DNA of 64,000 nucleotides from NCBI GenBank assembly GCA_025041195.1, contig JAKCFM010000003.1:1-64000 (forward strand). Reading direction: 5' to 3'. Below are positions 2,297 to 20,482 of this stretch, in pieces. Under the pieces are notes generated by a model. It saw nothing but the letters and a program-made list of their open reading frames with translations. It was not told where the DNA came from and did no database searches. This DNA is from Halobacteriales archaeon YIM A00013 (GTDB lineage Archaea > Halobacteriota > Halobacteria > Halobacteriales > Haloarculaceae). The translations under genes and the position numbers were made by a program. Each line of letters begins with the position of its first letter. Within the stretch, counting starts at the first letter, position 1.

Positions 2297-3220
2297 ATGA
2301 GCATTCAAGAAACTCGAGAAGCAGGACAATGTCCTGAGTGTGATGGAGGGACCGCTCAAAGCGTGCGTAACGAAGTAATCTGTGACGAATGTGGACTAAT
2401 TGTTGAAGAAGACTCAATCGACAGAGGACCTGACTGGCGAGCATTCAATTACCAAGAGTTTCAGAAGAAGGCACGTGTTGGTCCGCCAACCACGGAAACG
2501 CTCCACGATCGTGGGCTCGCAACGACGATTAGTTGGAACGATACTGATTTCCATGGAAATCCGTTGTCAGCGCGAAAGCGTCGACAGATGCATCGGCTTC
2601 GAACATGGAACCAATGGTCTCAAACTAGTGATTCTCACCAACAATACCGCAAGCAGGCATTCGGAGAGATCGAACGGATGGCTGCAGCGCTTGGGCTTCC
2701 AGCCGATGTCCGCGAGACTTCCTGTGTGCTTTTCAGACAATCCCACGAGGCTGGGATCGTTGCCGGCCGATCGATCGAATCGGTGGCCGCAGCCACAATG
2801 CACATTGCAGCCACAATAGCAGGATATCCCCGAACGTTAGATGAGATCGCTCATGTCGCTCGTGTTGGTCGCAAACCGATCGCTAGGGCAAAGCGAGCGA
2901 TTAATGCCGAGTTCGATCTCGCGGTCGAACCTCGAGATCCAACTGAGTACCTGAAGCGATTCGGATCACAGCTCAATCTTGACGAAAAGACGCACCGAAC
3001 AGCACGTGAGATTCTTCAATCTGCTCCGGACACCTATCTTGGTTCTGGAGCGAGTCCTGTCGCCATTGCCGCTGGTGCGTTGTATCTTGCGGATGGGATC
3101 ACAGGTGGGCAATCAGTGAGCCAGCGTGCAGTGAGTGAAGCCTGTGATGTCTGCATTGCGACCATCCAAACCCATCATCCGAAGCTCAGAGAATTCTATG
3201 AACAGAGTGGGCTCCGATGA
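2297..3220 (+). CDS. tfb: Transcription initiation factor IIB (TFB)
   Basis: This is archaeal TFB, which bridges TBP at the promoter to RNA polymerase. The protein is 307 aa, the usual length. The N-terminal zinc ribbon uses C12/C15 and C29/C32. A B-reader/linker region follows (~50-95, containing the family's HDRGL stretch), then two cyclin-like core repeats (~110-200 and ~205-300), the first including GRSIESVAAA. Haloarchaea encode many TFBs that steer different gene sets. This one heads a five-gene operon whose members overlap by 4-11 bp, so it may be dedicated to local genes such as the divergent regulator module or the helicase-nuclease operon downstream. That link is inference. A second TFB lies at 30583-31509. 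Confidence 0.95.
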   Translation: MSIQETREAGQCPECDGGTAQSVRNEVICDECGLIVEEDSIDRGPDWRAFNYQEFQKKARVGPPTTETLHDRGLATTISWNDTDFHGNPLSARKRRQMHRLRTWNQWSQTSDSHQQYRKQAFGEIERMAAALGLPADVRETSCVLFRQSHEAGIVAGRSIESVAAATMHIAATIAGYPRTLDEIAHVARVGRKPIARAKRAINAEFDLAVEPRDPTEYLKRFGSQLNLDEKTHRTAREILQSAPDTYLGSGASPVAIAAGALYLADGITGGQSVSQRAVSEACDVCIATIQTHHPKLREFYEQSGLR

Positions 3221-3582: not shown

Positions 3583-3818
3583 GAAATAACGATATTCCAA
3601 CCCAATTTGGAGACCGGCATCGTTGTAAGAAGATTATCACCGACAACCGGCTGATCGGACCAGACACTACCGTGTTTGGAGCTGCGATTTGCCCCCATGA
3701 AGAGTGTTCTCATCAAAATCCACTACATGGTGATCCAGATGAGTTTCAAAATGTGCTATTCCGATGTCTCGGCTGTCGGCGGATAATTCTTGTTGAGGAG
3801 GTTCCGGATGACCTGTGA
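3579..3818 (+). CDS. Small four-cysteine zinc-finger protein, copy A
   Basis: The product is 79 aa and overlaps the previous gene by ATGA. It carries one zinc-finger unit in the form CPHEEC ... CLGC (residues ~38-66), with a conserved NPLHGDPDEF loop between the cysteine pairs. The protein at 38875-39162 has the same unit (CSGC, NPLKGNPHEF, RCVRC), so the two are paralogous. In both places the gene sits in an operon that diverges from a copy of the regulator/partner module, which suggests a functional link. The role is unknown; a nucleic-acid or protein adaptor is possible. Confidence 0.7.
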   Translation: MRNNDIPTQFGDRHRCKKIITDNRLIGPDTTVFGAAICPHEECSHQNPLHGDPDEFQNVLFRCLGCRRIILVEEVPDDL

Positions 3819-4173
3819 TAATCACGCGGTAGAAAATGTGGAAATCGTCGAGATTGATGGCACCGTAGTCACGATTGAGGCCACTTGTTCTACCTGTAGC
3901 TGCCAACTCTGGACAACCACGAATCTAGAACCTGTTGCTGATGTATCGGTTGGTGATCGTTTTCGAGATTCCGACGGCCAAGTCTGGGAAGTTTCCGATC
4001 CCATCCGGCCAGGGCGGATAGATTGTTCGGGAAACACAATGGCCGATGTCGATGATCCTACGGAGGATCGAACTGTCGGCGTTTCTATCGAAACTCACGA
4101 CCAATCACTGTGGTTCAGTAGAGATCACTTCAACCGAATTCGGGATAAAATATTCGAGGAGATAGACCGATGA
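3808..4173 (+). CDS. Hypothetical protein with N-terminal CxxC-type cysteines
   Basis: The product is 121 aa from ATG 3808. An upstream in-frame TTG (3790) gives a longer reading, but an AGGAG Shine-Dalgarno at 3796-3800 sits the right distance from ATG 3808 and supports the shorter form. The gene overlaps the zinc-finger gene by 11 bp. It has cysteines near residue 3 and a CSTCSC cluster (~28-33) that could bind metal, and two beta-rich stretches containing VGDRFRDSDGQVWEV, which resembles a small SH3-like barrel. No family was recognised. Confidence 0.65.
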   Translation: MTCDNHAVENVEIVEIDGTVVTIEATCSTCSCQLWTTTNLEPVADVSVGDRFRDSDGQVWEVSDPIRPGRIDCSGNTMADVDDPTEDRTVGVSIETHDQSLWFSRDHFNRIRDKIFEEIDR

Positions 4174-4646
4174 GACAGCAACTTGAGTTGATTCTGTGTC
4201 CACACTGTGAGCGGGAATTCGATTTGAACGAAATTTTCGTCGTAAAGGATAGAGGGCCGAACTCAGCTGATATACAATGTCCAATTTGCTATCGGATGAT
4301 TTCGAACTGCAACCGTCCGACTGACGTAGAGCGACCGCCAGAAATTCGCTGTAAATCGTTTTTCGATAGAAAGGCACGTATATATTTTGAGACGAGAGAT
4401 TGGTTGCAATATCGACAACGAGACGATTCCCTCGTCATAGAAGAGATGTACTCGTCTGATGATGTTCTGGTAGAATCATTTGAAGCGGAGGTTGGGTACG
4501 GAGAGCAAAATCCAGAAGATGTCTTCAGTGCTCCCGAGGAGTACGTTGATCGCTTTGAACAGCATTACGATAAACTGACGATTCAAGGATTGAAGGTGCG
4601 ATTCCCGCACGTCTATGCAGTTGTAATTGATAGACAAGCGAAATAA
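4170..4646 (+). CDS. Zinc-ribbon protein, last gene of TFB operon
   Basis: The product is 158 aa and overlaps the previous gene by ATGA. An N-terminal zinc ribbon is visible: CPHC at residues ~10-13 and CPIC at ~37-40, about 25 residues apart, with a further Cys at ~47. The rest (~60-158) is acidic, rich in E, D and Y, and is predicted to be mixed alpha/beta, ending in a QGLKVRFPHVYAVVID-like strand. It closes the five-gene run that begins with TFB. No enzymatic motif was found. It may be a transcription-associated adaptor, but this is not shown by the sequence. Confidence 0.65.
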   Translation: MRQQLELILCPHCEREFDLNEIFVVKDRGPNSADIQCPICYRMISNCNRPTDVERPPEIRCKSFFDRKARIYFETRDWLQYRQRDDSLVIEEMYSSDDVLVESFEAEVGYGEQNPEDVFSAPEEYVDRFEQHYDKLTIQGLKVRFPHVYAVVIDRQAK

Positions 4647-5099: not shown

Positions 5100-6887
5100 A
5101 TGTCGACAGAGGACGAATCACTTGTTGATGTTCATTTCGAGGTAGACGATTCCCCACCTCTGCTTGATGAAATCACGACTAAGGGAGAGGCAGATCTGTC
5201 TCAACACCTCCTCAATATCGAAGCCAACCGGTTGTCGATCGCCCAAAGCCAACAAGAACTCCAATCAATCGAAGAGATAACAGACCAAATTCAACTGCTA
5301 GAGCATCAATTGGATGCTGCGCATCGGGCGCTCTTTCAGATGGATGGAAAAGCGTTGTTTGCTGATGAGGTCGGACTTGGAAAGACGATCGAGGTCGGAA
5401 TGGTCCTCAAAGAGATGGTCTTCCGGGACGCCCATGACACGTTCTTAATCCTGACCCCAGCTCAGTTGGCTACACAATGGCAGAAGGAAATGGCCGACAA
5501 GTTCGGCCTGGACTTTGCCTGCAATTATGATGACAACTTTGCTGGCTTCGATGCATACGACAAAATCATCGCCAGTATTGATACGGCCAAACAGGACCGA
5601 TATGCTGAGGACATCTACACGCGTGACTGGGACGCACTGATTATCGACGAAGCTCATTATCTACGGAACAGCGGAACCAATCGCTACGACTTCGTCGCGG
5701 ATATCGACTATCAATACGCCTTCTTTGCCACAGCTACGCCCGTCCAGAATGATGTTATGGATCTATACAATATTATCAATCTCATCCGACCAGGACTATT
5801 TGGAACGGAATCTGAATTTGAACAACGCTATGTTCCCCATCATGGTGAAGGGGGAGTACTGAACGCCGAAGAGTTGAATAGGCAACTTCGGTCGGTGATG
5901 ATCCGTCACAAACGGGGAGACACCGCTATCGATTTCACTGATCGGCAAGTCAGGACGAAAACATTCAAGCCAAATAATCAGGAGCAAATGCTGTACAACG
6001 CCGTTACGGAGTACGTCAAGAGCCATTATTCGATGCAGGCCGGAAGACATCTCGTCATGTTAATGCTCCAAAAAGAAGTAGTGAGTTCACCGTGGGCTGT
6101 TCTTGGTACCGTCGAGAAATGGCTTAATGGGGATGGGCGTGATGTTGATGGGCAAGAGCGGGAAGAACTTCTCGAAGTCGCAAAACAGGCACGAGCGATC
6201 AGCCGAACGACGAAACAGGAAAAGCTCCTGAATATCATTGAAGGAGTGAACGAACGGATGGAGACTGGCCGGACGATTGTCTTCACGCAATTTCATGCCA
6301 CCCAAGATGCAATAGTAGATGCACTGCGGGACGACGAGCGGCAAGAAGAGATCCCAGTTCATACAGTCAATGGGTCGCTCTCAAGCGCGGACAAAGACCA
6401 GCAAATCGAGCACTTCAGAGAGCGTGGAGGAGTTCTCGTCACTACCGACTCAATTAGTGAGGGGAGAAATATCCAATTCTGCAATGTGATCGTGAACTAT
6501 GACCTGCCGTGGAATCCGATGAGCGTCGAACAACGTATCGGTCGAATCGACAGAATCGGCCAAGACCGAGATGTCTACGTGTATAATCTAGCGCTGGAAG
6601 GGACAATCGAAGACTATGTCCTTGAGAAGTTGTATGGGAAGATCGATGTCTTTCACCAGACCGTCGGTGGATTGAAGGAAATTCTTTCAGAGCGCGAACA
6701 GTCGACCGGCCAGTTCGAACAAGAGGTACTCCAACAAATGATTGAGGCAGATTCTGAACGTGAATTAGAAAACAATTTCGAAGAAATGTCTGTTGACCTA
6801 GAAGGGGATATGAGATCTGCAAAGAAAGCACAGAAGTTCAATGAGAAAGTGTTTGAGGGCTTCGAAACTGGAGAAGGTCAAGCATGA
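5100..6887 (+). CDS. SNF2/RapA-type superfamily 2 helicase
   Basis: The product is 595 aa. It shows motif I in DEVGLGKTIEVG (~92-103), motif II DEAH (~183-186), motif III ATATP (~203-207), and in the second RecA lobe VFTQF, TTDSISEGRN and motif VI QRIGRIDRIGQ (~477-487). The spacing and the RIGQ box place it among SNF2-like ATP-driven double-stranded-DNA translocases, near RapA. It is shorter than RapA: the C-terminal extension is missing. The next gene begins 57 bp downstream and the third overlaps the second, so the three look like one operon. The helicase would translocate on or remodel DNA for the nuclease encoded third. The start is supported by a TATA box ~30 bp upstream. Confidence 0.9.
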   Translation: MSTEDESLVDVHFEVDDSPPLLDEITTKGEADLSQHLLNIEANRLSIAQSQQELQSIEEITDQIQLLEHQLDAAHRALFQMDGKALFADEVGLGKTIEVGMVLKEMVFRDAHDTFLILTPAQLATQWQKEMADKFGLDFACNYDDNFAGFDAYDKIIASIDTAKQDRYAEDIYTRDWDALIIDEAHYLRNSGTNRYDFVADIDYQYAFFATATPVQNDVMDLYNIINLIRPGLFGTESEFEQRYVPHHGEGGVLNAEELNRQLRSVMIRHKRGDTAIDFTDRQVRTKTFKPNNQEQMLYNAVTEYVKSHYSMQAGRHLVMLMLQKEVVSSPWAVLGTVEKWLNGDGRDVDGQEREELLEVAKQARAISRTTKQEKLLNIIEGVNERMETGRTIVFTQFHATQDAIVDALRDDERQEEIPVHTVNGSLSSADKDQQIEHFRERGGVLVTTDSISEGRNIQFCNVIVNYDLPWNPMSVEQRIGRIDRIGQDRDVYVYNLALEGTIEDYVLEKLYGKIDVFHQTVGGLKEILSEREQSTGQFEQEVLQQMIEADSERELENNFEEMSVDLEGDMRSAKKAQKFNEKVFEGFETGEGQA

Positions 6888-6944
6888 ATCCCACTCAGAA
6901 GAATAATGACATTTATAATAAGCATCAATACTATATGAGATACA

Positions 6945-8975
6945 ATGGAATCTGAAGTTGATACCTCCATTCTAAACAGCGTCAACATCAAGCGCTTCAC
7001 CAAATCTGTCCTGGAGGGATATGGAGCCGAGATCAATCGATCAAATAGTGCCAAGTGGGAAGTCACCTTTCCAGGCGAACTCTCGCGACAACTTGACCGT
7101 GACCACGGGACATTGGTATTTGATGCTACTGATCGTGAACTGGGATCTGGCGATCTTCTTGTCCAGCCGGGAACAACTGTATTCTCTGCCCTACTGAATC
7201 TTGTACAGCAACCAGGGAGTGTCGGTCGACTTCGATTAACAGAGGACACTCTCCAAGTGAATCCGCCCACGGTACTTCAGGAGTCAAATCTGGCGGTAGA
7301 GGTTACTGATTTCAGCGAACGCACATCCGACGTTGCTCTAGCATTTCATTTTCGGGTGCAATTCGAAACCCCCTCGTCATTCCACAGTGAAGAGATGTTT
7401 TCCGCAACGGTTGACCCGGTAACACAGACGAGACTGCCAGAATTAACTAAACGGCTTGTGTCCCATCTTCCACAGCTACTTCAACAAAACAACGAGCACC
7501 CTCCTCACGATGTTTCGGCCACACAGGTACAACAGGCCTTCGAAGAAGCCCAGAAAGCTGTTATCGACCAATCACGCCCGATTATTTCCGACCTGAGAGA
7601 GGACGCAGATGAGAGTGCAAGTGAGCGGATTCAGGAAATTACAGAGTGGTATGATCAGCGTCGGAGCGAACTCGACCAGCAACTAACGGACCAGCGCCAA
7701 GAGATTCAGAAATGGAAGAATAAGCGTCGTAAAGCACGCAAAGACAGCACCCGTCGGAAATATGTTAAAAACCGAAAGGAGGCAGAGCAGGAATTGACTC
7801 AGCTACAGAGAAAAATAGAAGAAAAGAAAGAAGAACTAGATGCCGAAGAGAGCACAGAGATTGACGAGGTTATCGATAGGAACGAGATTGATGTTGATGT
7901 ATCACTTATAGGAGTGACAGAGGTAGCGTACGTACGGGGAATCCTCGAATTGGAACTCGGCTCCAACCACGCTAATGCGACCATTGATCTATCGTACCTT
8001 CCAGCTACTGATGCCTTCCAAGGCTTGGACTGTGGCGTCTGTTCGCGGGATCTGACTGAAGGAGTTCTCCCAAAACTGTGTGCAAATGGACATCTAATCG
8101 GCAACCCATGTGCTACAAGTTGCCGGAGTTGTGGATTGACGTACTGTGAGGACTGTTATGGAGCAGAACAATGGATGTCGTGTGTGGTCTGTTGGGAGGA
8201 TATTTGCCAAGAGTGTTATCAGACGTGTGCCTCATGTGGAACTGCAGTCTGTACTGACCATAGCGAGTTCTGCGACATCTGTGAGTCAATAACTTGCCAT
8301 CTCTGTGGTGAAGAGTGCACTACATGCAGTACGTTCCATTGTGATTCTCATCTCATGCATTGCTCAGACTGTGATAATCACCACTGTGACGCACATACAC
8401 GGCGATGTAGCGTCTGTGAATCGCCTCGATGTGAAACAGATATTGAGCAGTGTTCGGCTTGTGATGACCTGATTTGTTCTGATCACAGTGTTGTGTGCAC
8501 TACGTGTGGAGAGACGCTCTGCCATGAACATACCGAGGTATGTGCGACATGCGCTGAGAGACAAGATGGTGAGGAGAAAATATTCTGTCGGACTCATGCA
8601 ATTCAGTGTTCGGTCGGCGAAGAAATCGTGTGCTCCACCCACCGTGTCTCCAGAACACTCGGCACTGGGCATCTGTGTCAGAATCACCATGATACGTGTG
8701 ACACCTGCGATATAGTATACAGTACACCTGTGTTGAACGACGGTCAATGTACAGCGTGCCGATCACTCGGTGACGTTGCTCAAACCCAGGTCCCAACAGA
8801 GATCACATCGGACTTCCGCTCTGTGGAGGCCGGTAGTAATGATGCGTATATGGTAGTTCTTGGGAAGAGGTTACTGGGACGTAATAAGATCATTATATAT
8901 GATATGGAAGCAGAACAAGAAGTTGATCGACATAGTGCGGGGATGCTGAAACAGCTCATGGGGGCGTACAAATGA
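6945..8975 (+). CDS. Coiled-coil protein with tandem Cys/His zinc-knuckle array
   Basis: The product is 676 aa. Residues 1-190 form a globular domain that could stand in for the C-terminal domain missing from the helicase. Residues ~195-300 are a highly charged coiled coil. Residues ~360-605 hold a dense run of CxxC and CxxH pairs about every 13-16 residues (CSDC, CDAH, CSVC, CSAC, CSDH, CTTC, CHEH, CATC), resembling stacked B-box, RING or treble-clef units. The last ~70 residues are globular. No known family was recognised. The protein sits between a helicase and a nuclease, overlapping the nuclease start by 4 bp, so a scaffold or recognition subunit is the natural inference. Confidence 0.8.
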   Translation: MESEVDTSILNSVNIKRFTKSVLEGYGAEINRSNSAKWEVTFPGELSRQLDRDHGTLVFDATDRELGSGDLLVQPGTTVFSALLNLVQQPGSVGRLRLTEDTLQVNPPTVLQESNLAVEVTDFSERTSDVALAFHFRVQFETPSSFHSEEMFSATVDPVTQTRLPELTKRLVSHLPQLLQQNNEHPPHDVSATQVQQAFEEAQKAVIDQSRPIISDLREDADESASERIQEITEWYDQRRSELDQQLTDQRQEIQKWKNKRRKARKDSTRRKYVKNRKEAEQELTQLQRKIEEKKEELDAEESTEIDEVIDRNEIDVDVSLIGVTEVAYVRGILELELGSNHANATIDLSYLPATDAFQGLDCGVCSRDLTEGVLPKLCANGHLIGNPCATSCRSCGLTYCEDCYGAEQWMSCVVCWEDICQECYQTCASCGTAVCTDHSEFCDICESITCHLCGEECTTCSTFHCDSHLMHCSDCDNHHCDAHTRRCSVCESPRCETDIEQCSACDDLICSDHSVVCTTCGETLCHEHTEVCATCAERQDGEEKIFCRTHAIQCSVGEEIVCSTHRVSRTLGTGHLCQNHHDTCDTCDIVYSTPVLNDGQCTACRSLGDVAQTQVPTEITSDFRSVEAGSNDAYMVVLGKRLLGRNKIIIYDMEAEQEVDRHSAGMLKQLMGAYK

Positions 8976-9628
8976 GTAGTCAAGCAGACATTCAGGCATG
9001 GGCGGAAGATGCTGATTCGCTCGCTGAGTTTATTGAAATAGCAGAAGGCCATGATACTCCCGAACACGTCCAAGCGTCACGGTTACTTGAACAGGTCTGG
9101 GAGCGGGATATCCCTCAGGACAGGGTTCTCAAAATACTTCGACGTGAGGGCGAGCGACTAGCTGAGTATCAGAGTGTCTCATTCTCCGAAACGTCGCGAG
9201 CACCCCGATATATGGATCTTAACGACCTCGAGCTGGTGTCTGGCTATGAATTTGAGCATATTCTGGCCGAGATCCTCCGTCGAGTGGAGGGTGATGCTAC
9301 AGTCACAGAAGGTTCCGGGGACCAAGGGGTCGACGTTGTGTGGTTTCGTGAGGCCACTACTGTTGGAATCCAAGCAAAGGCATACAGCATCAATAATCCT
9401 GTTGGAAACAGTGCAGTGCAGGAAATTTATACTGGGTCGGTCGTTCGACAGTCAGAATTTGCAATCGATACCCCTGCCGTCGTAACAACATCTCGGTATA
9501 CTGAAGGCGCAAAAGAAGCAGCGGAAACATCGGATGTTACGCTCTACAACCGCGAAGATCTAGAGCAGTGGTTATCACATGCTGAACTCGATGCAGAAAC
9601 GATGGGCGAACTTCTCGATACTGTCTAG
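8972..9628 (+). CDS. Mrr-like restriction endonuclease
   Basis: The product is 218 aa. The N-terminal ~70 residues are helical. Residues ~80-210 form an Mrr-type PD-(D/E)xK nuclease: GYEFEHILAEIL (catalytic-core helix with Glu), then GSGDQGVDVVW (catalytic Asp ~118), then VGIQAKAY (QxK, ~130-134), then a helix with VQEI and strands AVVTTSRYTEGA. Mrr-family enzymes cleave DNA, often modified DNA. The start overlaps the zinc-array gene (ATGA), so it is coupled to the helicase operon. No methyltransferase is present nearby, so self-protection must come another way or the enzyme must see a foreign modification. Confidence 0.85.
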   Translation: MSSQADIQAWAEDADSLAEFIEIAEGHDTPEHVQASRLLEQVWERDIPQDRVLKILRREGERLAEYQSVSFSETSRAPRYMDLNDLELVSGYEFEHILAEILRRVEGDATVTEGSGDQGVDVVWFREATTVGIQAKAYSINNPVGNSAVQEIYTGSVVRQSEFAIDTPAVVTTSRYTEGAKEAAETSDVTLYNREDLEQWLSHAELDAETMGELLDTV

Positions 9629-11760: not shown

Positions 11761-11923
11761 TACTGCATAACTCTGGCATAGTAATTCGATCACGCAATGA
11801 GTTACTGATATGAGATTAGTGAATGAATATCAACCACTGTTCCCATTTACCTGCCATTCACATACAAAATAACATAGATAGGTGGTTTTTTACGTAATAG
11901 GTGTCATGTCTTTCGTGTATCGA

Positions 11924-12667
11924 ATGAGAACACTCGTCACGTTATCGGCTCGAAATCACTTTGCCTATTACAATAAATACAACCACAAGTTGCAAGGACG
12001 GCTGTATAACGATTTGAAACAAAGAGGGTATGAGACGATCCACAACGAGCAGGGTCCAAAGGGTTTCAGCTACTCGAATATCTTCCCCCCACGAGATGCT
12101 CAGGAAGGTGATACCCGCCGGTTCATCTTCGCGGCACCAGACGATCAGTTGGTGACTGATGTTGCCTATGGATTGTGCTCCAAACCAGAGGTTAATATCG
12201 GGCCAATGACCTTGAAAACTGAAGAAGCATTTACACTCGATCCTGCGGTTGAAGATCAGGGAACGCTCACTACAGGAACACCTATTGTTCTCCGTATGTC
12301 TCCAGAAGATAGCCGTAACAAGGGTATCGACCCTGAAGACCATGATCGGGTGTATTGGCGACCAAAGCATGGGATGGACAGTTTCTTCGATCGCCTCTAT
12401 GCTAACATGCAGGCCAAATATCGACAGTATTACGACGAAGATCCCCCCGAGCCACCATACTTTTCGGGATACACATTGGACCGAACCGTTGCTAAACCCG
12501 TTGCCTTCGCTGATGGCGACGCCCAATTCATTGGCGGAGAATGGACCTTCGAATACGAGCTCACAAGCCAGACGCATCGGCGTATGCTTAATCTGATGCT
12601 TGATGTCGGCCTCGGAGAACTGAATTCACTCGGATTCGGATTCATGAACCGGGGGGCCGATGTCTGA
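11924..12667 (+). CDS. cas6: Cas6, CRISPR RNA endonuclease
   Basis: The product is 247 aa from ATG 11924 (MRTLVTLSAR, the usual haloarchaeal Cas6 start). A GTG at 11882 and an ATG at 11906 are in frame but add a non-family N-terminus. Cas6 cuts the pre-crRNA within each repeat and leaves an 8-nt 5' tag. The family marks are the N-terminal RAMP strand, a His in the first helix region (YNHKLQG) as candidate catalytic residue, and the C-terminal glycine-rich loop GLGELNSLGFG (~232-242). It is the first gene of the cas operon and lies between array 1 and cas8b. The gene looks intact. Confidence 0.93.
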   Translation: MRTLVTLSARNHFAYYNKYNHKLQGRLYNDLKQRGYETIHNEQGPKGFSYSNIFPPRDAQEGDTRRFIFAAPDDQLVTDVAYGLCSKPEVNIGPMTLKTEEAFTLDPAVEDQGTLTTGTPIVLRMSPEDSRNKGIDPEDHDRVYWRPKHGMDSFFDRLYANMQAKYRQYYDEDPPEPPYFSGYTLDRTVAKPVAFADGDAQFIGGEWTFEYELTSQTHRRMLNLMLDVGLGELNSLGFGFMNRGADV

Positions 12668-12702
12668 TGCGAGTTCCAGCCTTCCGAGGAGAGTGGTGAA
12701 AA

Positions 12703-14676
12703 ATGCTCCTTGACGCATTGGCAACCATCGGGGACGAGCTCGCTGAACAGCACTTTGGCTCCACGATGCACGCCTGCTGTGATCCAGATGCGCTGCGTGA
12801 CAATCAGGCGATTGAAACCGTGGTCGAACTCGAGTTCAGTCGGAACGGCGATGCGTTCACCTATCAAGGAACACGAGTCGTTGATCCATTCTCACCGCTC
12901 GAAATGGCACTCAAATATGGCTATGCAAATCGATACAACCAGTACGACCATAGCCTCACACAGCGCGCCAGTAGCAGTCTTCTCACCGAGCTAGATCGGA
13001 TGATTGACTGGCCACAGAACGGTGCCATTGGTGAAATCACTGAAGACCCATTTGTCGAAGCGATTGCTGAGACATTCGAAACAAACGCCACGGACATTCG
13101 AGCGGATCTTGAGCAGTACGACGACGCTATCGATTACAAGGCACTCCTCACGATCCGATTTGAAGATGACGGATCGGTCCAGTATCCGGGAGAAATAGAC
13201 CCACTCGTCGAGGGCACCTTCAACGCGTATACAGAGACACTGGAGTCAGCATCGAGTGCTACTGGAAGTATCGGAACCACTCGGTGTTCCATCTGCGATG
13301 AGGTGGGAGATACATATGGACTCGGTGCAGGATTGGACGGCATATACGCGCTGAAGAAACAGTGGCCGTTCCCACAGTACAATGCCTCGAACGCCTGGCA
13401 ATCGCGACCACTCTGTGCAGAGTGTATCAGTAACATTGAGACGGCCTCGAAGCTCTTTGTGGACAAACAATCCTATGGAGCGCCTGGTATACGGTGTCGA
13501 GTCATTCCCTACGCGCTTCCTGTAGCAGATGCCGAAGATCGGCTTCGAGCACTTGTTCGCGGTGGTTACGAGAACCTGACGGATAATGAGGCTGAACGAC
13601 CCTTATCGAACGCCTGGGAGGACTATCGTACTCGAGCAGAGCTTCTTGGCGATGACGAGGTCCTTCGCCTCTCCTTCGTCCATTATATTCGAGATAGCAA
13701 CAAAGCACACGGTGTCGCTTCAATCGATGGCGTCTCCATGGATCATCTCGAACGAGTCATAGAGGCGTTTAAAACCGTTCTCGATACGCATCCGATCTTC
13801 CAGACACCACCGTTCTCAGAGCTATCAGCCCTTTCCGAAAAGCAGGTCTTCACTGGGAAATGGCTATATAATCTGCTTTGTGGCGCCTCTGACAGAGATC
13901 ACGAGGGGAATCCGATTGGTGACGATAATCGCTGGGCGAATTATACGGAGGCGCTTCTCACGGACACCCCCCTACGATACACCGAGTTCGTCTCAGGGGT
14001 GACACAGGAGGCAATTGTTCGCTATCGCGACCGTCGTTCAGACGACGACGAGACAGACTATCCCTATGACGGATTTCACATTGCACAGGCGTTCGCATTC
14101 CAACGAGCCTGCGCCCAACTTGCGCTATTCACTGATGAGTATACCACACACACCATGACTCCGGATAGTATCACAGGCGAGTACGAATCATTCGGCGATG
14201 GACTCGCTGAGTGGATCGACGCCCACGAGAGTATTAACCAATCGCCAGGACGAACGGCTGGCTTCGTGCTTGGGGCCGTTGCGGCACGTCTCTCGGCCTG
14301 GCAACAGAGACGAAAACTCAATCGGACCTTCGTCCAGAACCGTGATGTCGCCCACCTATCGGCAGCGAATCTTGCAAAGTGGGAAACAGCGATCTGGGAG
14401 AAGGCCAAAACCTACCACGCTCAAAATGGAGGATACGGCACTCCGTGGGCTACAGCCCACGAACTGTTCCACCAAGCAATTCTACGGGGTGAAAACGAGG
14501 GCTGGAACGCAACCAAAGACGAGATACAATATCATTACATCCTTGGAGTAACCTTCGGCCCGAAGATTCACGCCAGAGCTTCTGAGAATAAAAAAGACAC
14601 CACGGAGGCTGAGAGCACGACAGAGAGTGCACCAATTGAACAGAGCGGCGCAACCGAATATACCAACGAGAACTAA
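12703..14676 (+). CDS. cas8b: Cas8b (Csh1), large Cascade subunit of type I-B
   Basis: The product is 657 aa, normal for haloarchaeal Cas8b. Cas8b recognises the PAM and anchors the crRNA complex. A four-cysteine zinc site is visible: CSICDEVG (~189-192) and CAEC (~229-232). The C-terminal third is helical, where the small-subunit function is thought to reside in I-B. The tail is Glu/Thr-rich. It starts 35 bp after cas6 and ends 6 bp before cas7. No lesions were seen. Confidence 0.92.
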   Translation: MLLDALATIGDELAEQHFGSTMHACCDPDALRDNQAIETVVELEFSRNGDAFTYQGTRVVDPFSPLEMALKYGYANRYNQYDHSLTQRASSSLLTELDRMIDWPQNGAIGEITEDPFVEAIAETFETNATDIRADLEQYDDAIDYKALLTIRFEDDGSVQYPGEIDPLVEGTFNAYTETLESASSATGSIGTTRCSICDEVGDTYGLGAGLDGIYALKKQWPFPQYNASNAWQSRPLCAECISNIETASKLFVDKQSYGAPGIRCRVIPYALPVADAEDRLRALVRGGYENLTDNEAERPLSNAWEDYRTRAELLGDDEVLRLSFVHYIRDSNKAHGVASIDGVSMDHLERVIEAFKTVLDTHPIFQTPPFSELSALSEKQVFTGKWLYNLLCGASDRDHEGNPIGDDNRWANYTEALLTDTPLRYTEFVSGVTQEAIVRYRDRRSDDDETDYPYDGFHIAQAFAFQRACAQLALFTDEYTTHTMTPDSITGEYESFGDGLAEWIDAHESINQSPGRTAGFVLGAVAARLSAWQQRRKLNRTFVQNRDVAHLSAANLAKWETAIWEKAKTYHAQNGGYGTPWATAHELFHQAILRGENEGWNATKDEIQYHYILGVTFGPKIHARASENKKDTTEAESTTESAPIEQSGATEYTNEN

Positions 14677-14682
14677 CTCACA

Positions 14683-15657
14683 ATGTCAGCAGATAACGCC
14701 ACTATTCAGAATCGCTCAGAAATCGTCTTCCTATACGACGCAGTTGATACCAATCCGAATGGCGATCCACTAACTGAAGAGAATCGGCCACGTGTGGATG
14801 AGTACACTGAGGAAGCCATCGTCACTGACGTTCGACTCAAGCGAGTCGTCCGTGATTATCTCGACCGGGAAGGCCATTCGATTCTCGTGAAAGCCTCGGG
14901 GAGCGAAAAGAGAGACGATAAGGGAGATAGATACGCTGAACTCTTCGAAGGTATCGATGAAGATGATGAGGAAGACGTTGTTGACACCTTCCTTGATCGG
15001 GCTGTCGACGTTCGACTGTTCGGTGACAGCATGGCGTTCGACGATGCACCCACAGATTCGTTCACTGGCCCTGTGCAGTTTAATTTCGGTCGATCAATGC
15101 ATCCGGTCCATGAAGTGACTCATGGAAAAACGTCAGTGCTTGCGGCTGATAGCGAGAGTGGCGGTGCGGGTGGAAACATGTTCTCCGAGCATCGGATCGC
15201 GTACGCAATGGTCCGATTCCACGGAGTCGTCGATGAGAATGGCGCCACAGATACGAATCTCTCTGACGATGATCTCGATCTGCTCGAGGATGGACTATGG
15301 TTTGGGACCAGAGAGTTAACTAACACTTCATCAAAGCGTGGGCATGAGCCGAGGCTGCTCCTCCGCGTCGAGTATTCGGATGATGAGTATCATATCGGTG
15401 ATCTCCACCGGTCGATCGATCTCCTGCCACAAACGGAGGGCCCGAAAGCGATGCGAGATATTTCACATACTCTGCTGGACGTCGACGATCTCGTAGACTT
15501 GCTAGCAGACCACCACGACCGGATTGAGCACGTCTATGCTCGTACTAGCCGCCGACTGCAGGTTACCGCCAACAATGAAGTCGGTGGGCCAGAGCGACTC
15601 AAGGCTGCGTTGCAGTCCACACTCGGTGATCACGCCGTTACTGTCACCTATGACTAA
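14683..15657 (+). CDS. cas7: Cas7 (Csh2), Cascade backbone
   Basis: The product is 324 aa. Several copies polymerise along the crRNA spacer to form the Cascade backbone. The N-terminal family signature is clear (FLYDAVDTNPNGDPLT, residues ~13-28), followed by a TDVRLKRVVRDYL segment. The central ~90-160 region carries GPVQFNFGRSMHPV. It is tightly packed between cas8b and cas5 (an 8-bp overlap with cas5). Length and motifs are normal for type I-B. Confidence 0.95.
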   Translation: MSADNATIQNRSEIVFLYDAVDTNPNGDPLTEENRPRVDEYTEEAIVTDVRLKRVVRDYLDREGHSILVKASGSEKRDDKGDRYAELFEGIDEDDEEDVVDTFLDRAVDVRLFGDSMAFDDAPTDSFTGPVQFNFGRSMHPVHEVTHGKTSVLAADSESGGAGGNMFSEHRIAYAMVRFHGVVDENGATDTNLSDDDLDLLEDGLWFGTRELTNTSSKRGHEPRLLLRVEYSDDEYHIGDLHRSIDLLPQTEGPKAMRDISHTLLDVDDLVDLLADHHDRIEHVYARTSRRLQVTANNEVGGPERLKAALQSTLGDHAVTVTYD

Positions 15658-16378
15658 CGACTGTATCGTTCTCGACGTGGCAGGTGAGCAAGCCCACTTT
15701 CGCAAGCCACATACAACATCGCCAGCGATGACGTTCGGACTTCCACCCCGCACGACGGTCGCTGGCATGGTTGCTGCCATCCTTGGACTCCCACGAGACT
15801 CGTATTACGACTCCTTTGATCGGGAATCAAGCCGTATTGCCATCTCTATCGAATCACCGATTCGGCGACTCTCAATGGCGCTCAATATCCTCAACACAGA
15901 GGGCAGCAACACCAAAACCAAAGGAGCGACACCAGGGAAATTCGTTCGCGATCATCGACAGCAAAATGTCTTTGAATATCTCTGTGAACCCGCTTACCGT
16001 CTATACGTCTCTCTCGATGACGATGACCTCATGGACCAACTTGAGTCAAAACTTTCTGCAGGGAAGAGTGCATATGTACTGTCCCTGGGTCTCAGTGAGC
16101 ACTTGGCCTGGTACGATTACATAGGTCGATTCGATATCGAGTCAGGTGAGGGTGCAGCGTCAATTCGCTCGGCCCTTCCCGGCGAAAATCTTAGCATTAT
16201 TCCCGATTCCGGAGCAGAATATGTGTCCGAGCGGATGCCAGCATTCATGCGGGCAAGTGATGATGGGCGTATTGCCGACGGAGCACAGACACTAACCTAC
16301 GATCGCTCCGGTGCTGTGATCGATGTGCGCGACGAGCGGTATTCGATCGTTGGAGGCGATACTGTTGTCTTCTCATAA
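15650..16378 (+). CDS. cas5: Cas5, crRNA 5'-handle binding subunit
   Basis: The product is 242 aa from ATG 15650, which overlaps the cas7 stop. The frame is open further upstream, but that part lies inside cas7 and lacks family features. The N-terminal RAMP fold reads VLDVAGEQAHFRKPHTTSPAMTF, then GLPPRTTVAGMVAAILGL, the typical Cas5 segment. It caps the 5' handle of the crRNA and contacts Cas8b. The gene looks intact. Confidence 0.93.
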   Translation: MTNDCIVLDVAGEQAHFRKPHTTSPAMTFGLPPRTTVAGMVAAILGLPRDSYYDSFDRESSRIAISIESPIRRLSMALNILNTEGSNTKTKGATPGKFVRDHRQQNVFEYLCEPAYRLYVSLDDDDLMDQLESKLSAGKSAYVLSLGLSEHLAWYDYIGRFDIESGEGAASIRSALPGENLSIIPDSGAEYVSERMPAFMRASDDGRIADGAQTLTYDRSGAVIDVRDERYSIVGGDTVVFS

Positions 16379-18791
16379 CATCATCTCACACTCTGACCGA
16401 AGCGTCGATCAGCGCGAGCGTGCCGATATCTTTCCAGGGGATCGTCATCTTGTAGCTCACCTGCAAGGAGTCACAGAGGAAGCTGCGAGTGGACTCAGTG
16501 GTGAGTATCGTCGGTTCACAGAAATTGTCTGTGGATCACACGATATTGGAAAGGGAACATCATTCTTTCAAGCGTATGTTCGGGGTCTAGGACCTGATGA
16601 TAACACGAAAAGCCATGCACCGGTATCGGCGCTAGCGTGCTATCGAGCGTTGCGAAATGATGGCTTCTCGGTCCGGAGCGCGTTTGGTGGGTTGCTCGCC
16701 GTCTATCGGCATCACCGACCCCTAATCAATACAACTGGTGATAATTCAATACATAATATCCTCTTGGATGATTCTCAGTACGACATTCTGAAATTACAGG
16801 CCCGTGATCTTTGTGACAATGCTGATACAGTCCAACCGATCTGTGATGAGCTTGGGGTTCCACTGGATATCGAGATATTTTCCGAGTGGATAGATTCACG
16901 AGACTATCTTAGAGACCTTCTTCAGAATGTCTACTGCAACGGACAACTGCAGTTCGACACTGGGAGCAAAAATGCCTGGACGGTGATTGAGACGTACTCT
17001 CGACTAGTCGCCGCTGATAAGATCGACGCGGCACAGTATGACCAGCTAAATCGTTCTCCGATACCCGCCGATGCGGTCAGTTCCTATATCGAGGACGAAT
17101 TTGGCGAACCCGAGCCAGACACAATTGACGAACTTCGAAACGAGGCAAGGATGGAGGTCAGAACTGCAGTTAAACAGGCTGATTTCTCAAAATCTCTCTT
17201 CGAGTTGACGCTTCCTACGGGAGCTGGCAAAACGCTCACCAGCCTTGATGCAGCACTCATTCTCCGGAATAAGATCGAGAGCGAAACTGGCTCTCGGCCC
17301 CGAATTGTGTATACGGTTCCTTATACATCGATTATCGATCAGAACGTGGCTGTTTTCAACGACGTGCTCAGCACTGCCTGTGACGAAATGATTGACCCAG
17401 AGCGATTACTCAAACATCATTATCTATCCGACCTTACGCATGTTACTGACGACACGGACCAAAACGCCGACCGTGCTCTGATGTTGACGGCCCGCTGGGA
17501 GAGTGAACTCATTGCGACGACATTCGTTCAATTTCTGGAGAGTCTTATCGTACCGTCGAATCGCCAGTCGATGAAGCTCCCAAATCTAGAGGATGCAGTC
17601 GTGATTATCGACGAAGTACAGGCAGTACCGGCCCAGTATTGGGATGTCGTTCGTGAGGTTCTCAATCTCCTTGCAGAGAATTTCAATTGCACTATCATCG
17701 CGATGTCGGCAACGCAACCACGACTGTTCGAGACGGCAACACCGCTCGTCGGAACCGACGCCGGAGATGAAACAGATTCAAGCCCGTATAATACGTACTT
17801 TGAGCGCCTTGATAGAGTCAGTTTTCAATTCGACGAAAGCATTACCACCGAACCGGTGAGTCATTCCGATCTCTCAGATCAAATTGCAACGTATGCTCGA
17901 TCTCACCACGAGGAAGACTGTCTTGTCGTGTGCAATACGATTCAGTCTGCCACAACTCTTTTTGAGGAATTATCGGAGCGACCATTCTCGGATGACACGT
18001 CACTTGTATATCTGTCGAGTGCTGTGCGCCCCAAAGACCGTAAACAGCGAATCGAACGACTTCGAGAATCAACCTCTGATCGATTTATCGTTGTGAGTAC
18101 GCAAGTGGTTGAGGCTGGTGTCGACATCGATATGGACGCTGTTTGGCGAGATTTCGCGCCGTTAGATTCAATTGTCCAGGCGGCTGGCCGCTGTAATCGG
18201 GAATGGGACGATACGTCTCGCGGTGTCATTACAGTAGTCTCAATCGCAGAAGATGGCGACCATCCAGCACATGCGATTTACGATATGCCGCGGCTTGATG
18301 CCACTCGTCGGATTCTCACCGACAGTGGAGAGATCCCGTACGAAGCGACCGAATATGAAGTGACCAGCGATCTCGTCGATAGCTACTTCGATTGCATCGA
18401 ATCAAGGAAAAAAACGAATGAATCGCTTACTGAGCTTCAATCGTGGCAATTCGAAGATGCCGAGATTGCACTCATCGATGACACTCTCACAGCAGAGGTC
18501 TTTGTCATGACTGAGGACGAAACTGATGATGGAAGCCCACCGCCTTCATTTACAGCGATGCAAGATGCTGTTAAGGAAGGTGATCGGGGGGCGATCGCTC
18601 GGGCAAAACCTGCGTTCTACGATAACGTTGTAACGGTCAATCTCTACGCAGCTACTTCGAATCGCGCGGATGAGATTCAATCGCTCCCATTTCCGGATAC
18701 TGACCTTGGAGTATATTTACTCAATGCTGATTCTCCGCGGTATTCCAACTGGTACGATAGTGAGACGGGATTTGCAATTCCATCTCAATGA
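16323..18791 (+). CDS. cas3: Cas3 nuclease-helicase
   Basis: The protein is 822 aa from ATG 16323, which overlaps cas5; an in-frame TTG at 16365 is an alternative start. The HD nuclease comes first: candidate metal ligands in AHLQG (~40) and GSHDIGKG (~72-78). The SF2 helicase follows: LPTGAGKT (~299-306), IDEVQ (~425-429, DEVQ in place of DEAH), SATQP (~464) and the QAAGRCNRE motif VI (~620-628). Cas3 unwinds and degrades DNA captured by Cascade. The C-terminus ends right where cas1 sequence begins (18772), so a deletion has probably trimmed the natural 3' end and replaced the last residues. Activity is plausible because the catalytic motifs are intact. Confidence 0.92.
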   Translation: MCATSGIRSLEAILLSSHNIISHSDRSVDQRERADIFPGDRHLVAHLQGVTEEAASGLSGEYRRFTEIVCGSHDIGKGTSFFQAYVRGLGPDDNTKSHAPVSALACYRALRNDGFSVRSAFGGLLAVYRHHRPLINTTGDNSIHNILLDDSQYDILKLQARDLCDNADTVQPICDELGVPLDIEIFSEWIDSRDYLRDLLQNVYCNGQLQFDTGSKNAWTVIETYSRLVAADKIDAAQYDQLNRSPIPADAVSSYIEDEFGEPEPDTIDELRNEARMEVRTAVKQADFSKSLFELTLPTGAGKTLTSLDAALILRNKIESETGSRPRIVYTVPYTSIIDQNVAVFNDVLSTACDEMIDPERLLKHHYLSDLTHVTDDTDQNADRALMLTARWESELIATTFVQFLESLIVPSNRQSMKLPNLEDAVVIIDEVQAVPAQYWDVVREVLNLLAENFNCTIIAMSATQPRLFETATPLVGTDAGDETDSSPYNTYFERLDRVSFQFDESITTEPVSHSDLSDQIATYARSHHEEDCLVVCNTIQSATTLFEELSERPFSDDTSLVYLSSAVRPKDRKQRIERLRESTSDRFIVVSTQVVEAGVDIDMDAVWRDFAPLDSIVQAAGRCNREWDDTSRGVITVVSIAEDGDHPAHAIYDMPRLDATRRILTDSGEIPYEATEYEVTSDLVDSYFDCIESRKKTNESLTELQSWQFEDAEIALIDDTLTAEVFVMTEDETDDGSPPPSFTAMQDAVKEGDRGAIARAKPAFYDNVVTVNLYAATSNRADEIQSLPFPDTDLGVYLLNADSPRYSNWYDSETGFAIPSQ

Positions 18792-19219: not shown

Positions 19220-20482
19220 ATGAACTATAACTACCGGTACAGGCTCGACCCGTCCGATGCTCTCCAAGAGACATTGAACCGGCATCGGGATCTGTATCGG
19301 CAAGTGTATAACCACTTTCTCTATCGTCTTAATCACAGTGACGGGACGACGAAATACGGTGAAATCAATCAACTCCCGTCGATTAAGCAGTGGTGGGACG
19401 ACCTCACTGATCTGTATTCTCGCACCCTTCAGAACGTCGTTGAGAGATTATACACCAACCTCTCACGGCTGAAGGACGCGAAGGATAACGGTCGGAAGGT
19501 CGGTCAACTCAAGTGGAAAGCGCCAACCGAGTACTGATCGTTCACGTATAGACAGTCTGGGTTCGAGCTCAAGAACACGAGTGGCCAGACTGTCCTACGG
19601 CTTTCAAAGATCGGAACAATACCGGTTCATTTCCACCGAGAGATCCCTGAGAACGCGACTATCAAACAAGTCACGGTCAAGAAGGAACCGACGGGCGAAT
19701 GGTTCGCCACATTCGGCGTCGAAACGCCCGAAGCCCCACCAGAAAAACCTGAAAACCCTGAGAAGTGCGTCGGTATCGACGTGGGTATCCTGAAGTACGC
19801 TCACGACACCGATGGAACCGCCGTCGAATCGCTCGATCTCTCGGACGAGCGTGAACGGTTGGAACGCGAACAACGAAAACTTTCACGCAAGAAACACGGC
19901 TCCAACAACTGGGAGAAACAGCGGAAGCTCGTTGCTGAGCGCCATGCCGACCTCAAGCGAAAGCGCCACGATTTCCTCCACAAACTGTCGAACTACTACG
20001 CACGCGAATACGACCTCGTCGCTGTCGAAGACTTAAACGTCGCCGGAATGATGCAGTTCGACTCGAACTCACGAAACCGAGCATCCGCCGCATGGGGTAC
20101 TTTTCTCCGGATGCTCGAATACAAGTGCGAACGTGAAGGAACGCACTACGTTCCGGTCGAGCCGAAAGATACCACCAAAGAGTGTGCGGCGTGTGGTGTG
20201 AAAACCAACAAACAGTTGTGGGTCCGCGAACACTCCTGTCCATCATGTGGCTTCACGGCCGATAGAGACGCGAATGCTGCGTGGAACATCCTTTCGAGCG
20301 GCCTCGAAGATATAGGAGTGGGATACTCCGAATCAATGCCTGTGGAGACTGCGCTCCCTGTGGATACACCTGTATCTGCAAAGCGCGTTCGCCAGAACAG
20401 CAGGTTCTGGCTGGCTGCCAGACGTAGTCTGGCAACGTCATTGAAACAGGAAGCCCTGCCCTCAAGGAGCAAGCCGTGTTAG
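19220..20482 (+). pseudogene. tnpB: TnpB (RNA-guided nuclease of IS605 family) with one nonsense codon
   Basis: This is a single frame of 421 codons interrupted only by TGA at 19535-19537. The context PTEY-stop-SFTYRQSG indicates CGA (Arg) changed to TGA. Downstream of the stop the frame is fully open. The RuvC residues are intact: Asp in GIDVGILKYA, Glu in VAVEDLNV and Asp in DRDANAAWN. The zinc finger is CAAC ... CPSC. An N-terminal fragment of 105 aa ends at the stop. A C-terminal product could start at an internal ATG, but full-length nuclease would need readthrough. TnpB cuts DNA guided by an RNA from the element's right end. Confidence 0.9.

Follow-up and report, generated by a model that had tools for sequence, protein, structure and literature searches.

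The closest described relatives of the locus analysed here are the BREX-related (BR) systems, also known as DUF499/DUF1156 systems or Hma (PMC12839542, PMC8565338), together with the systems that carry the DISARM helicase DrmD or its Type-3 BREX counterpart BrxHII. The published anatomy of BrxHII comprises a Tudor domain, an Snf2 core, a degenerate REase and a C-terminal alpha+beta domain with a coiled-coil insert (PMC12839542). Zorya offers a further point of comparison in ZorD, a fusion of an Snf2 helicase with an Mrr nuclease, and DndCDEA-PbeABCD is a haloarchaeal system (PMC6459918). We consider it probable (about 0.62) that three adjacent genes of the window (the whole 64,000-nucleotide stretch of DNA that was analysed), designated A, B and C, form a haloarchaeal antiviral or anti-plasmid DNA-restriction operon in which a split DrmD/BrxHII-type helicase is combined with a zinc array and an Mrr-type protein. 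The sequences are best read as a variant of the BREX-related/DISARM helicase systems that has not been described before and lacks a methyltransferase; its new element is the long zinc array.

Table 1. Features of the A-B-C operon in window coordinates
Feature	Position	Strand	Description and basis
Gene A	5100..6887	+	595-aa Snf2/RapA-type translocase core; ORF list, Pfam, PADLOC, NCBIfam, profile comparison
Gene B	6945..8975	+	676 aa; N-terminal half, predicted helicase C-terminal half with coiled coil; C-terminal half, Cys/His array
B residues ~10-310	6972..7874	+	predicted homologue of the C-terminal half of full-length DrmD/BrxHII-like helicases; coiled coil ~190-310 inside
B residues 363-605, tandem Cys/His array	8031..8759	+	motif count, orthologue alignment
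Gene C	8972..9628	+	218-aa Mrr-type PD-(D/E)xK protein; D121 and Q134-x-K136 intact

The three open reading frames of the window list are tightly packed on one strand, with a gap of 57 bp between A and B and the start of C overlapping the stop of B, and purifying selection acts on all of them (dN/dS 0.05-0.18). A preliminary description, made from the window sequence, had named an SNF2/RapA-type translocase, a 676-aa coiled-coil Cys/His protein and an Mrr-type nuclease, probably joined in one operon, between a TFB operon and a type I-B CRISPR locus. The ORFs, Pfam and motif counts confirm the three proteins, the flanks are as claimed (TFB gene at 2297-3220, cas genes at 11882-18791), and 20 of the 21 zinc-array loci retain the order A-B-C. 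The open reading frames, the invariance of the array cysteines and the selection on the genes indicate that this description of the operon is correct and far from chance. Conservation upstream of A is limited to the closest orthologues; a sigma-70/terminator scan, which is not apt for archaea, stayed at chance level.

Gene A retains an intact Walker A motif (DEVGLGKT), DEAH box and motif VI (QRIGRIDRIGQ), and matches SNF2-rel_dom (6e-31) and Helicase_C (1e-22) in Pfam; RapA is the most similar of the solved structures. Its best PADLOC and NCBIfam matches are DrmD/BrxHII helicases, with scores far below the NCBIfam equivalog cut-offs (257 vs 610 bits for DrmD, 248 vs 950), and it contains neither the N-terminal Tudor domain nor the C-terminal helicase half. 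Where could the missing half be? Neither Pfam nor NCBIfam gives a match above cut-off for gene B, and PADLOC yields weak coiled-coil matches only. Comparison with full-length (~980 aa) haloarchaeal DrmD-like helicases by hhalign, however, aligns its residues ~13-303 colinearly with the segment directly after the motor core. The profile of the array family reaches a probability of 98% (E 3e-13) and a mixed profile of B and its short relatives, B', 97% (E 1e-10), within an overall range of 96-98%; the mixed profile scores 81 vs at most 23 in 30 column-shuffled controls. The similarity extends beyond the coiled coil, because residues 1-185 of B alone, which precede it, score 46 vs at most 19 in shuffles, and coiled-coil matching as the sole source of the signal was rejected on these grounds.

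The published anatomy of BrxHII fits this arrangement, with A as the core and the N-terminal half of B as the C-terminal half. Since the first ~300 residues of B correspond, on profile evidence, to the C-terminal half of a DrmD/BrxHII-type helicase that has become separated from its core, A and B together would be one such helicase in two chains, which places the locus within the BREX-related/DISARM helicase world. The preliminary description had B as a large zinc-array protein outside known systems, a view that no longer holds for its N-terminal half. Against the PDB, the profile of this half retrieved coiled coils only and did not reach RapA, and AlphaFold models built from a two-sequence alignment (window and Halocatena pleomorpha) have mean pLDDT values of 34 for B and 37 for C, too low to be informative about the folds. 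Cyanobacterial and Rhodovastum plasmids carry pairs of this kind too, in which an Snf2 core precedes a coiled-coil protein of 333-385 aa (profile match 93-95%). Such bacterial pairs show the same split, which therefore probably predates the zinc array.

The array itself contains 44 cysteines, 16 CxxC and 9 CxxH motifs. Across six orthologues 43 of the 44 cysteines are invariant, as are 12 of 17 histidines, compared with 57 of 188 other residues, and arrays in relatives range from 15 to 45 CxxC motifs. These ligands would suffice for roughly 13-14 zinc ions. The array was apparently a later addition to the helicase half in B and is likely the sensing or recruiting part of the system. One may go further and imagine a modular, expandable array in which every CxxC...CxxH unit of ~15 residues contacts DNA or a protein of the virus, so that lineages retune specificity through gain, loss or alteration of units and the archaeal helicase system acquires tunable target reading with no methyl mark; we regard this elaboration as distinctly unlikely. 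An isolated copy of the array in another genome (L051:9470-10165, contig 27 of G327) was rejected as a stand-alone gene: it is a lone 665-bp remnant of the array part of B, with 91% identity to the window and neither A nor C nearby. In the public record of the Haloferax lucentense plasmid pSVX82-3 (L074), whose operon is of the class 2 described below, A and C are named and B is missing, with small antisense hypothetical ORFs annotated across the zinc-array gene. Since all family libraries used missed the array and one plasmid record leaves the B gene unannotated, systems of this type are easily overlooked.

In a survey of 392 genomes of the order (haloarchaea), B homologues occurred in 73 and were of two kinds, the full-length form with the array and B', a protein of ~390-450 aa ending in one zinc ribbon. 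Close homologues of A were found in 72 genomes at 80 loci, and B or B' lies directly downstream on the same strand in 79 of them, the exception being an A in G124 that lacks B. Five hits to B have no accompanying A, among them a degraded copy, the remnant of a gene and one at a contig edge. At all 21 array loci B is followed by C or a C-like gene, and at 20 of them it is preceded by A. Both A and B are absent from three of six same-genus genomes (the window genome counted among the six), and copies reside on plasmids of Halocatena salina, Haloferax lucentense and Halorhabdus tiamatea. Outside Halobacteria the B profile yielded marginal Cys-rich or coiled-coil matches only, and the phage records and viral contigs searched contained no relatives of B. 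The patchy occurrence of the haloarchaeal relatives, together with similar genes beside DNA-modification defence systems, suggests that A-B-C probably represents a branch of this antiviral machinery not described so far.

The array loci fall into three classes. Class 1 (the window, H. pleomorpha, H. salina, G157, G241 and G207) has B of 675-676 aa and C of 216-220 aa. Class 2, made up of ten loci with A (L036-L042, L044, L046 and L048) and the degraded L047, encodes a B of ~1030-1185 aa with 34-45 CxxC motifs (fewer in L047) and a C of ~310-385 aa, followed downstream by a gene c6 (~298 aa) and usually accompanied by a divergent pair, c7 and c5, of which c5 is a ResIII/PbeA-like helicase; c5, c6 and c7 may be a second module of the class 2 system. 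The products of c6 and c7 (~285 aa) have in common a ~70-residue domain (hhalign 96%) with no Pfam match. In class 2b (L043, L045, L049 and L050), B has ~890-950 aa and 15-16 CxxC motifs, and an Eco57I/DrmMI-like methyltransferase or N6_N4 methyltransferases are neighbours. Class 3 comprises A-B' pairs only, with a DUF1156 methyltransferase and/or DUF499 ATPase, the relatives of HmaB and HmaC, at 19 of 20 loci. A maximum-likelihood tree of A unites classes 1, 2 and 2b (0.984) as sister to class 3 (0.994). The preliminary description had held that homologues of the zinc protein without helicase and nuclease, or in housekeeping surroundings, would speak against a single defence system; short B homologues without the nuclease do exist, in another predicted defence context and not a housekeeping one.

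How, then, does A-B-C stand to the described systems? With the BREX-related/Hma systems it shares the kind of helicase, and the nearest A-B' pairs adjoin DUF1156 methyltransferase and DUF499 ATPase genes; it differs in its apparently two-chain helicase and in the addition of a zinc array and of an Mrr protein encoded on its own. Of the parts of a BR-type Swi2/Snf2 helicase (Tudor, core, inactive REase and C-terminal alpha+beta domain), the core lies in A and the C-terminal half is predicted, by profile comparison, in B, the Tudor domain being absent. No A-B-C locus contains a DUF499-type AAA+ ATPase or a DUF1156 N6-methyltransferase. As regards INDEPENDENCE from BREX-related systems, DUF1156 exceeds the cut-off in 12 of the 21 array-locus genomes and DUF499 likewise in 12, always away from A-B-C. 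The window genome itself has a separate BREX-related/Hma-like set on the same contig, ~130 kb away (C3:129719-139225), with a helicase of 1321 aa, a DUF1156 methyltransferase of 965 aa and a DUF499 ATPase of 1158 aa. H. salina and eight other array-locus genomes, some of them incomplete assemblies, show neither DUF1156 nor DUF499 above cut-off genome-wide, which argues that A-B-C does not need these partners.

DISARM DrmD and Type-3 BREX BrxHII provide the top matches of A, and their C-terminal half corresponds to the N-terminal half of B, but A-B consists of two chains, lacks the Tudor domain and scores far below the equivalog cut-offs. Besides the missed DrmD cut-off, the window operon contains no DrmA, DrmB, DrmC or PglZ, and a DrmMI-like methyltransferase adjoins some class 2b loci only. 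Zorya combines the same pair of activities in ZorD, whose C-terminal end C matches; here, in contrast, helicase and nuclease are on separate chains, A resembles DrmD far more closely, and a scan of the proteins of the operon and upstream of it gave no ZorA or ZorB match. The likeness to DndCDEA-PbeABCD lies in the PbeA-like ResIII helicase c5 of class 2 relatives, whereas the window operon has no Pbe or Dnd proteins. The defining partners of BR/Hma, DISARM and Zorya were thus sought and not found, which sets A-B-C outside these systems; as a set, the three genes match no named system. Our literature search, with most subscription journals outside its reach, found no description of the gene set.

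What could the three proteins do together? C matches Mrr_cat in Pfam (9e-19), and its best PADLOC match is the Mrr C-terminal end of ZorD (6e-20). The D...Q-x-K motif of Mrr-type nucleases is intact in the window protein and its five class 1 orthologues, six loci that together span two families. In 14 class 2 and 2b proteins, by comparison, Q-x-K is replaced (e.g. by LRT, IRT or LRA), and one more is not alignable; with the topology ((1,2),2b), this pattern implies at least two losses of the motif or one re-acquisition. The helicase-plus-nuclease core of the preliminary description therefore stands for the window-type clade and not for those 14 relatives, in which loss of the motif argues against cleavage by C as the general mode; C could act by cutting only in the window-type clade.

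Under the preferred reading of a restriction operon, A would supply the Snf2 motor and B the former C-terminal half of the helicase, a RapA-like alpha+beta region with the coiled coil, so that an A-B motor would track along DNA. The array would set specificity by recognising some trait of the invader's DNA or of viral nucleoprotein, or by clamping and recruiting partners, a role that is our guess. C would act as the cutting effector in the window-type clade, and its degenerate counterparts in other clades as DNA-binding or docking parts only. As no methyltransferase is encoded, self and non-self would have to be told apart by the structure or chemistry of the target and not by cognate methylation. 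That the proteins assemble into a complex, bind zinc, track along DNA, recognise such a target, cleave it and act in defence is what we infer here.

Mrr/McrBC-type enzymes act in modification-dependent restriction, and the intact motif of C in the window clade, together with the absence of methyltransferases from those class 1 loci that were examined, would also suit a type IV-like scheme in which A-B guides C to cut foreign-modified DNA, the array reads the modification and a host without the mark is spared. We consider this unlikely, because Pfam/NCBIfam scans revealed none of the known domains that read modified bases (SRA, EVE, SBD), C is degenerate in most relatives and class 2b loci have methyltransferases next door; the same neighbours restrict the earlier remark that no methyltransferase is present, which is true of the window. 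Retention of the C gene at 14 loci despite catalytic loss could instead reflect non-cleaving exclusion, as reported for BREX and PbeABCD, with A-B stalling replication or transcription of the invader and C as a DNA-binding subunit. The proximity of A to RapA and the second, PbeA-like helicase of class 2 loci accord with such a mode, but the catalytic residues are intact in all six window-type loci and C is under purifying selection, and we hold it to be quite unlikely for the operon.

The case for a DNA-restriction operon also draws on its surroundings. At a threshold of 1e-15, the flanks of 16 A-B-C loci gave 117 PADLOC families among 73 proteins, compared with 13 for an equal number of control proteins, most of them encoded on the same contigs; as these counts are of overlapping families and not of proteins, with TnpB matches labelled Cas12f included, the ratio is a rough guide. 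The flank matches include AbiE, MkoA, ShosA, PDC-S02/S11/S37, methyltransferases, CARF and BrxHII. The checks proposed earlier, on co-occurrence and defence islands, thus returned linked genes, a patchy distribution and surroundings rich in defence genes relative to controls, and A-B-C is a real, conserved operon with a probable role in defence, as judged from context. A housekeeping module for DNA repair, chromatin or RNA-polymerase recycling, to which the Snf2/RapA-type motor and the nearby TFB gene might point, is highly improbable in view of the minority of genomes that possess the genes, the absences within the genus, the plasmid copies, the defence-rich flanks and neighbouring genes that differ from locus to locus.

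If correctly read, the operon illustrates a route to a new defence branch, in which DrmD/BrxHII-type helicases are split into two chains, lose DUF499 and methyltransferase as partners and acquire a zinc array of great length. The gene set is small, and Haloferax, one of the genera that carry it, allows genetic tests.

Some further features of the genomic setting may be recorded. Two small cysteine-containing ORFs of 127 and 158 aa, with no family match above cut-off and no counterpart seen at the orthologous loci, occupy the interval that separates the TFB gene from the operon (window 3790-4646). Directly after the type I-B cas genes, a TnpB/IS605 OrfB-like gene, apparently in two frames, was noted by eye at 19220-20482. 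Genes for methionyl-tRNA synthetase and a Cdc6-like AAA ATPase lie directly upstream of the operon on the H. salina plasmid (L073:1392-6302) and likewise upstream of it in H. pleomorpha (L031).
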